Origin: Corallium rubrum
Taxonomy: Eukaryota > Cnidaria > Anthozoa > Scleralcyonacea > Coralliidae
Length of the DNA stretch: 64,000 nt
Direction: 5' to 3'
Assembly: GCA_964035015.1 (NCBI GenBank)
Contig: OZ036005.1
Span: forward strand, 15,480,658-15,544,657
Shown: positions 24,984 through 41,302 of the stretch, piece by piece
How positions within the stretch are numbered: position 1 is the first letter of the stretch
Layout: each line of letters begins with the position of its first letter
Notes under the pieces: generated by a model
Told to the model about the DNA's origin: nothing
The model's input: only the letters and a program-made list of their open reading frames with translations
The model's database searches: none
Translations under genes and position numbers: made by a program

Positions 24984-27900
24984 CTAAAATGTATCATCAG
25001 GATAACATTCATGGCTGCAAAATTCTGGATTTGGATGTTCAGAATAAAATTGATAGAATTCTCCAAATTTTCCACATCCAATGAAACCATACATTTCTTT
25101 GTACGTCTGATTACACTGGATACACCTTCGTATTTCAAAATCCACAAAATATTGTTCTTTAAACTCTTTGCTACTTTCACTCCAGTTATACACACTGTTG
25201 AGCCATGCATAATGTACATTGCACTTAAAAGATGTTTGTGAAACTATTCTTGAAATGTGCTTGCATACTAGACTTAGGGTGTAATACATGTGATCTCCTT
25301 CAGTCAATACATATTTTAAAATAATTTCCAAAATTTCATTTGGGAGAGAAAGAAGATGTAATCTAGATGTTTGTGAATAGTCTCCATGGTCATTTTCAAG
25401 CAAAGTTCTACAAATAAAAAAATATTGAAATTTAGAATCAATGTCAACTGTGTAATTTGTCATTGATGTTTTATATAATTTTGGTTTTACTGTAGCAATG
25501 AACTTATTTTTTTATTTAAATGAATTTTATGCTGAAATTAATGTTCCATGTTTAAAAAGTAAATTATGCACAATTTTGAAAAATTGTCTTACCTTGTAGG
25601 GATTTGAAAATAGGTTGTAGGATTTGCCATTTGAATTGCCAAGTATTTTCTTAAAAGAGGTATGTCATCCTACAATAAAAATACAATATAAAATACAGTA
25701 TTTGCTGTACATGTATATGTTGATTTGAGGAATATTACATGTTGCTCTCCCTGCGTGATTAATGCACTGATATCAAGTGTTTATCATAACATGCTCATGA
25801 ATGCTTTCTTCTTTACACTGTCATTACCTGGGTAAAGTTTACTGGTAGCCCTTTAGCCAGACAAGCAGCAGCCTAAAATTTAAAATAAAATTATTCATTT
25901 TTATATTGTCCTATAATTAGACTTTTACCGTAGTATAGCCCAGGCTACATTGAGATTGGTTTGTTAACAATTTAAGCCAAGCCTGAAGTAACATTAAACT
26001 GATTGAGTATTGTATTTAATTCTGTGTTTTTGTACATTATTGTATACATGTACCCAAAATTTTCCACGTTTACAAGGGTCAATGGGCATTTACAATAATA
26101 GGACTTACTACACATATGAATACACCACATGAGCTTGAGTCAAGTTGCTTTGGTTTTGTCTCTGTTGAGTCAGTAAAATAGTGCATTGGTAAATGTATTG
26201 CTTTCTGTTGTGAAAGGGATGCCATCAGTAACCTGGAAGTTTACAGATTGAAAATTTTTTAAAAATTACTACTGTACTGTACACCAACGGTATATTAAGT
26301 ACTGTTAGATGCATAAATGTACATATCCTGTTCTTCAGTACCGTTAGTGGATGAAAGAGCTCACACCTTTTATTGTGCTAACTGGTAGTAATTGACAGTA
26401 TGAAGAATGATTGTGGTGGTACATTTAACCACAATGCTTTGCAACTTCAATTCAACTCAAATAACAACTAAGCATTGTTTATCATACTAAGATAGATTAT
26501 ATAAGCAAGAACTCCATTCCTACGAAAGCTGATCATTTTAAAACCATGTCTTCCAATAATTTCTGCAAGAAACAATATTTACTGCATGCAAAGGATTGTG
26601 GTTAAATGTGCAAGTTGCAGTCTTTTTTGGTACGGTCAATTGAAATATGTGTCGCAGTTGTAGAACACAGTAATAAAACATTAAGGTGCTAAAAACTTAA
26701 ATAAAGTACCTCATTTGTTTATGGAAATTCACATTTTCTCTTGACAATGGATCATAAAATAGTATGGTATATGTCCTAAAGTCAACAACCTGTTGTGGAA
26801 CATATATTGTACATCACCATTTTTTTGTACATATATTGTACATCATCAGTTTCTTGCTTATACATAGATAGCATACGTACATATATTTCAATAGATATAT
26901 ATTAGATAGATAGATAGATAGATAGATAGATAGATAGATAGATAGATAGATAGATAGATAGATAGATAGATAGATAGATAGATAGATAGATAGATAGATA
27001 GATAGATAGATAGACAGACAGACAGACAGACAGACAGACAGACAGACAGACAGACAGACAGACAGACAGACAGACAGACAGACAGACAGACAGACAGACA
27101 GACAGACAGACAGACAGACAGACAGACAGACAGACAGACAGACAGACAGACAGACAGACAGACAGACAGACAGACAGACAGACAGACAGACAGACAGACA
27201 GACAGACAGACAGACAGACAGACAGACAGACAGACAGACAGACAGACAGACAGACAGACAGACAGACAGATAGATAGATAGATAGATAGATAGATAGATA
27301 GATAGATAGATAGATAGATAGATAGATAGATAGATAGATAGATAGATAGATAGATAGATCTGTGGATCTGTAGATATAGATGTAGATATAGTTATGTACA
27401 GTATAGAGTACATATTAATGAGTAATGTACAGTACTAGCTAAACAAAATGTTTATGGTTTTCAATTGTTATAATATCATTGCTTACCCCAAGACACCAAT
27501 GCTTATTATCACAGTTAATTGGTAAAAAACATAATTCTGCTGTGAGCAAATCTTTCTAAATAAAGAAAAACAACAACAGCATCTTAACCAAACCAAGATG
27601 CCTTTCTTTCCAAAAAGTTCCTTTGCATTATATACTGTTTTTAAATTGCTAAATACAGTATACAACAGCATATTAGCAAGTTAGAGTACAATTAGAATTT
27701 GATTGCTTTTATTTAAACATGTACAGGTATCTACCTTTTTAAACCACTTGGTTACTGAATGCACACCATATCTGGACATCTTAGTGTACATGAAGCTGCT
27801 CATCACCTCAAGTTGTGTATCTGCCTACAAATCCATTTTTAGGATTTCATTTTAATAGGTGTTTCAATGCAGTTGTTGTACTACATAAAGTTGCCACATG

Positions 27901-41302: not shown

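Follow-up and report, generated by a model that had tools for sequence, protein, structure and literature searches.

The question raised by this locus is whether a long row of spliced exons, which joins zinc fingers to USP and Ulp1 protease modules and an F-box, is a gene of the coral or part of a mobile element. The exons lie on the minus strand, from position 41302 down to 24984, of a 64,000-nucleotide window of the Corallium rubrum genome (GenBank assembly GCA_964035015.1, contig OZ036005.1, positions 15,480,658 to 15,544,657), and a preliminary description of this window had inferred from them a DNA-binding protein able to edit both ubiquitin and SUMO or NEDD8. A reading as a host gene fails because the exon row lies inside a DNA transposon at 20587-55543, an identification that we regard as practically certain; inverted termini, 8-bp target-site duplications (TSDs), a deletion derivative, and sister copies whose flanks are unrelated all speak against a host regulator. 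The element is very probably an octocoral cut-and-paste transposon, kin to Zisupton and to HMGXB3-like proteins, whose DDE-like core is accompanied by USP, Ulp1, F-box and CxC7 cargo that would aid its mobility.

The extent of the transposon was read from its copies. Homology of the DNA to two sister copies, at C1:56.87M and C18:0.72M, continues far beyond the gene and stops at about 20587 in both of them and at about 55543 on the other side, so that the window copy, with later insertions within it, spans 20587-55543. Its right terminal inverted repeat (TIR; 55473-55543, plus strand) is complete and ends in ...AAGCACTGCCAAGTCTACTTG; the left TIR (20587-20631, plus strand) has lost its outer end, and the TSD of this copy is not visible because of that truncation. 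When the genome (474 Mb) was searched with a 27-base terminus, 71 sites were found at three or fewer mismatches, and a reversed-pattern control gave none. We read 14 end pairs, ten picked from the list of 71 sites and four others: eight have an exact 8-bp TSD at a fixed offset, two have one shifted by 5-6 nt, and four have none. The C1 copy is bordered by an 8-bp TSD, and the near-full C18 copy is among the four pairs without one. Three near-full copies are present, 33-37 kb in length, and the one 11-kb relative that was read whole is a deletion derivative: both ends and the 92-bp satellite remain, and the gene end survives as a relic, but coding sequence is gone.

The same exon set is present in the C1 and C18 copies, at 75-100% identity per match and 50-62% where a match crosses an intron. 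These two are sister copies in which long pieces are mostly 97-99.8% identical and the flanks differ. All 23 exons are open in the C1:56.87M copy, with AG/GT edges; 21 of the 23 are open in the C18 copy, where k1 and k6 are not, and where the F-box exon is one base shorter. Set against the C1:56.87M copy, the window copy is a damaged member of the family: its k1 has two frame lesions, its k6 is split by an insert of about 375 bp, and its k12 has lost a short piece. The k6 insert (35549-35923, plus strand) is a 5S-rRNA-like short interspersed nuclear element (30.4 bits and E 4e-4 against the Rfam 5S model, with a gathering score of 38), found in the C18 copy and not in the C1 copy; at the gathering score, Rfam gave no match across 20000-56500. 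The insert also resembles positions 19720-19879. Two further inserts occur in the window copy and in neither the C18 nor the C1 copy: a small one at 36072-36254, with inverted ends and, by eye, a tRNA-like middle in which ARAGORN finds no tRNA, and a 1.1-kb one at 21095-22199.

A more diverged copy, C56, keeps the module order of the window from SWIM region through F-box, at 32-79% identity per match; its USP carries one frame lesion and one stop codon. Where two stretches of its DNA were compared with the window, exon k7 alone aligned besides repeats, and no TIRs were found near it within the 26 kb read. At C12:12333413-12337084 lies a related core (about 35-40% identity) followed, by eye, by Ulp1-like and PHD-like regions and lacking a USP; a lone terminus of the giant element stands at C12:12328698, some 5 kb away.

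The phase-matched exons of the preliminary description are indeed there in the order that it gave: 23 of the 24 proposed were kept, all on the minus strand with phase-compatible splice sites in the window copy. The row opens with k1 (39999-41302), which holds the C2H2 fingers, the SWIM-like finger and the two frame lesions, and passes through k2 (39662-39801; YRYQEYEDGLHNFDD), k3 (37847-38048), with a first conserved Asp (NWDLCKKG), k4 (36950-37054) and k5 (36615-36814) to k6 (35515-36039), which aligns with a SAP-like region of fish relatives and is broken by the insert described above. Exon k7 (34180-34854) contains the transposase-like core with a second conserved Asp (NVSDIAGR) and a Glu (SESHEQL), and is joined by k8 (32254-32396), a linker whose phases fit, to the USP. 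The USP consists of k9 (31731-32014), with the Cys box (GLQNPPGKNQCYINSLLQCL), k10 (31422-31610), with the first zinc pair (ICRRCG), k12 (30245-30433), which has the short deletion, and k13 (29951-30107), with the His box (GHFNCMV) and the Asp. The stretch 31207-31120 was tried as a further USP exon and rejected: it is a dispersed repeat whose peptide turns up alone at some ten further sites, and splicing in the sister copies skips it. An acidic linker, k14 (29755-29802), follows the USP. The Ulp1 module runs through u1 (28209-28400), where it begins, u2 (28021-28068), u3 (27735-27824), u4 (27487-27555), with the catalytic His (NKHWCLG), u5 (26710-26789), with the catalytic Asp (VVDFR), u6 (26545-26562), which is short and the least certain, u7 (26109-26232), with the Gln and Cys (QLDSSSCG), u8 (25828-25872) and u9 (25593-25669). 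The F-box, CxC7 and stop codon are in u10 (24984-25407).

The preliminary description had claimed complete catalytic sets for both proteases, and had named failure of the USP or Ulp1 module in a Pfam search of the joined exons as grounds for rejecting it. Both modules were matched in that search, in which single exons were also scored separately. The UCH profile scores 46.7 bits (E 4.2e-12) in the first join from the window alone, and 58.8 bits (E 8.4e-16; profile positions 7-254 of 254) when 31207-31120 is removed and two exons are taken from the C1 copy; exon k13 by itself gives 26.7 bits against a cut-off of 23.9. The Cys, His and Asp boxes are all present, and the matches of the USP to USP36, USP5, USP15 and USP14 are weak (best E 2e-4). 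Peptidase_C48 scores 93.3 bits (E 2.6e-26), and the closest match of the Ulp1 module is human SENP1 (E 1.8e-28), with whose residues its His, Asp, Gln and Cys line up. SENP8 is absent from the 15 Ulp1 matches at E 0.1, and by sequence the module is SENP1/2-like. Chance is excluded by these scores as a source of the USP and Ulp1 matches; that both modules are active enzymes we infer from their sequences.

The smaller modules score closer to the Pfam cut-offs. The F-box lies around its cut-off of 20.5 bits, at 20.0 in the joined exons and 21.1 in the exon alone, and passes it in a relative from Paramuricea clavata (29.9 bits). CxC7 gives 23.8 bits joined and 25.6 in the exon alone, against a cut-off of 27, and 37.8 and 24.3 bits in the octocoral relatives P0001 and P0002. 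The C2H2 fingers fall short of their cut-off of 25.2 bits (18.8 joined, 24.6 in the exon alone). Inspection by eye and alignment to relatives both show a SWIM-like C-x-C...C-x-H motif; Pfam returns no SWIM match for the exons, even at E values as high as 1. CxC4 has no Pfam match in the window protein, and is above its cut-off in the protein P0003 of Dendronephthya gigantea.

The core is homologous to fish 'HMG domain-containing 3' proteins (58 matches at E <=1e-3, best 4.2e-191), which are 30-40% identical to the window protein in this region, and modelling suggests that it may be an RNase H-fold DDE transposase. The whole 1294-residue join, used as a protein query, gave no match among 6506 candidates. 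By its core the protein belongs with the HMGXB3-like family. The Pfam KDZ profile (PF18758) does not match the joined protein even when E values as high as 1 are allowed, and gives 30 matches elsewhere in the genome and none at this element. An hhalign comparison with one KDZ frame from the same genome was also negative. Since PF18758 was tested and does not match, we do not file the element as KDZ in the Pfam sense; the relatives that were scanned lack this profile too, although Pfam labels their clusters KDZ-associated.

Two proteins match the Ulp1-F-box join, one from Dendronephthya gigantea and one from Paramuricea clavata, both octocorals. Among 37 HMGXB3-like fish proteins scanned, Ulp1 is found in four, and F-box with CxC7 in one. 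The fish protein P0015 has the core, an Ulp1 remnant, the F-box and CxC7 in the order of the window, within one predicted protein, and the pairing of F-box and Ulp1 is therefore not new. The USP is different. No USP or UCH domain is among those listed for the 58 fish-type relatives (11 of which list no domains), nor is UCH among the 25 listed of the 51 families from the Pfam scan of the 37, and relative to these relatives the USP is, on predicted domain content, a new addition. Of the deubiquitinase and SCF adaptor that had been proposed as additions at this locus, then, the first survives and the second does not, given the fish relative and an F-box-bearing isoform of platyfish Zisupton (PMC12062965, in the part available).

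The suggestion of a Zisupton-type element was right in kind. According to the available part of PMC12730594, Zisupton has TIRs and an 8-bp TSD, and the latter, its defining feature, is what the eight exact end pairs show here. Ulp1 adds to the likeness, as would the F-box and CxC7, whose scores here lie near their cut-offs; the comparison is drawn from published features, as far as the sources available describe them. The coral element differs in its USP between core and Ulp1, its length of about 35 kb, its 92-bp satellite array and its want of a PF18758 match. In the literature available to us, a search found no report pairing Zisupton with Ulp1, nor one of a transposon-encoded UCH with Ulp1.

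Evidence on whether the cargo has been retained comes from comparing the window copy with C56 over 391 codons of the SWIM region, 469 of the core, 138 of the USP (k9, k10 and k13), 198 of Ulp1 and 132 of the F-box; k8, k11, k12, u2 and u8 gave no match, and k14 and u6 were left out. The proportion of synonymous differences is 0.57-0.75, near or at saturation, and that of nonsynonymous differences is 0.18-0.32 in each of the five modules. The ratio of nonsynonymous to synonymous substitution rates (dN/dS) is 0.11 for the USP, 0.26 for Ulp1 and 0.34 for the F-box, and is not computable for the SWIM region and core. Synonymous change far exceeds nonsynonymous change in the USP, which has therefore been kept, like the transposase, through much of the time since the lineages split. 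A second comparison, with the C1:68.7M copy, gave ratios of 0.66 for the core, 0.44 for the USP and 1.18 for Ulp1, with no match for k1-k6, k8, u9 and u10, and is not informative.

Several other readings have to be set against that of an autonomous transposon with functional cargo. A host multi-domain gene, spread by segmental duplication, whose product binds DNA and combines the roles of deubiquitinase, SUMO protease and SCF adaptor, would account for a long spliced gene, for the annotation of the fish relatives as genes and for the expression of zebrafish F-box-CxC7 genes reported in the available part of PMC12062965. It is nevertheless highly improbable, as the copies stop at common inverted termini with 8-bp duplications and the deletion derivative has the same ends. 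That the element is a giant non-autonomous one, moved by the transposase of another element and carrying the gene cluster as cargo, would agree with the failure of PF18758 to recognize the protein and with the ratio of three near-full coding copies to 71 termini; we consider this quite unlikely, since the modelled core resembles a DDE transposase and the 11-kb copy that was read carries no long transposase frame. It is also unlikely, if a little less so, that the USP and F-box are passengers without a role in transposition, kept by chance. The lesions in the window, C18 and C56 copies would fit such passengers, as would the dN/dS of 1.18 for Ulp1 in the C1:68.7M copy; set against this are the low ratios of USP, Ulp1 and F-box relative to C56, a copy in which k7 alone aligned besides repeats over the two stretches compared as DNA.

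A real possibility, if somewhat short of an even chance, is that the transposon contains two adjacent genes, one encoding a transposase-USP protein with its end near 29735, the other an Ulp1-F-box-CxC7 protein that starts at 28400. The preliminary description had pointed to a phase gap at this place, and the gap is confirmed in the window: exon k14 ends in phase 1 at 29755, which misfits the exon at 28400, and read-through leads to an early stop. The read-through tail is 87% like that of another copy (C1:68.76M), and the Ulp1-CxC7 part of Dendronephthya gigantea is annotated as a separate protein of 345 residues. On the side of a single gene, two phase-compatible linker exons, recognized by eye, join the USP to Ulp1 in the C56 paralogue, and the core, Ulp1 remnant, F-box and CxC7 of the fish protein P0015 lie in one predicted protein. 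A scan of 29755-28400 in the window gave one weak linker candidate (28774-28698) and nothing clearly related to the linkers of C56.

Other features lie within or beside the transposon. The 92-bp satellite forms an array at 45261-50173. A second element frame, on the plus strand at 52187-53203, holds the end of a 338-residue Cys-rich protein that matches no Pfam family above its own cut-off; it is complete in the C1 copy and partly gone in the C18 copy, and has distant relatives at C20 and C1:42.8M. Just outside the element ends is an 82-bp inverted repeat, 94% alike (20450-20531 and 55723-55804), which may be an older repeat hit by the insertion. Elements of about 1 kb on C18, C32 and C49 have the same 27-base termini with identical sequence beyond them on both sides, and are perhaps a separate family sharing these ends.

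The pairing of USP and Ulp1 recurs in other long frames of this genome. A 1722-residue frame at C25:14482501-14493500 scores 86.5 bits for UCH, 58.8 for C48 and 27.7 for the transposase of Mutator-like elements (MULEs; cut-off 27.6) over the 1298 residues scanned, and by eye has a SWIM-like finger near its end. A near copy on C8 was read over a stretch that contains UCH and C48 and stops before the MULE part, and a broken relative lies on C37. At C299:612501-618476, a frame of 1317 residues has UCH (89.1 bits) and C48 (61.0 bits) in the 745 residues scanned and an HMG box below threshold (18.8 against 25.4 bits); its front part is DDE-transposase-like by eye alone. The USPs of the giant element, C25, C197 and C299 are 22-39% alike in pairs, and that of the giant element is 23-32% like the others, so that a recent transfer to it from any of these three is not supported. 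It is conceivable, though we think it somewhat unlikely, that unrelated transposons in this one genome (the giant element, the MULE-type element and the element of C299, transposase-like by eye) each gained a tandem of deubiquitinase and SUMO protease because mobility can generally be preserved by clearing silencing or repair complexes of both ubiquitin and SUMO, with the SCF adaptor of the giant element degrading a host restriction factor.

Cargo of this general kind has precedents. The available text of PMC2836005 describes Ginger1 and Mutator-like elements in which a DNA transposase is joined to Ulp1 or OTU, proposes a role for ubiquitin and SUMO in transposition and mentions that one transposase of Trichomonas bears a C19 domain; these elements belong to other superfamilies, and no trio of USP, Ulp1 and F-box was found in that text. 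In the KIU/VANC Vandal MULEs of plants an Ulp1 domain is carried by an element-encoded anti-silencing protein, without a USP in the part of PMC13317346 available and thus unlike the coral element, and TET/JBP cargo of fungal elements has been explained as escape from silencing (PMC12730594, in part). We suggest tentatively that the cargo of the coral transposon likewise serves anti-silencing or the licensing of transposition. The fingers would bind the element ends, and the core would cut and join with an 8-bp stagger. USP and Ulp1 could then strip the transposase of ubiquitin and SUMO, or do the same to proteins with which the host silences and repairs the insertion site, and the F-box might recruit the SCF ligase of the host, with either a host factor or the transposase as its target. 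Such cargo would preserve mobility where the host relies on SUMO and ubiquitin for silencing and degradation.

In summary, an exon row that might pass for a complex coral gene belongs to a giant transposon, and annotated gene sets of corals and fish may include elements of this kind under the guise of host genes. Ulp1, OTU and TET cargo on transposons had suggested that these elements edit host marks to evade silencing, and the ubiquitin arm of such editing is little covered in the literature as available to us. The deubiquitinase, SUMO protease and F-box described here, each with nonsynonymous change far below synonymous change relative to C56, provide a defined set of domains through which it can be tested biochemically.
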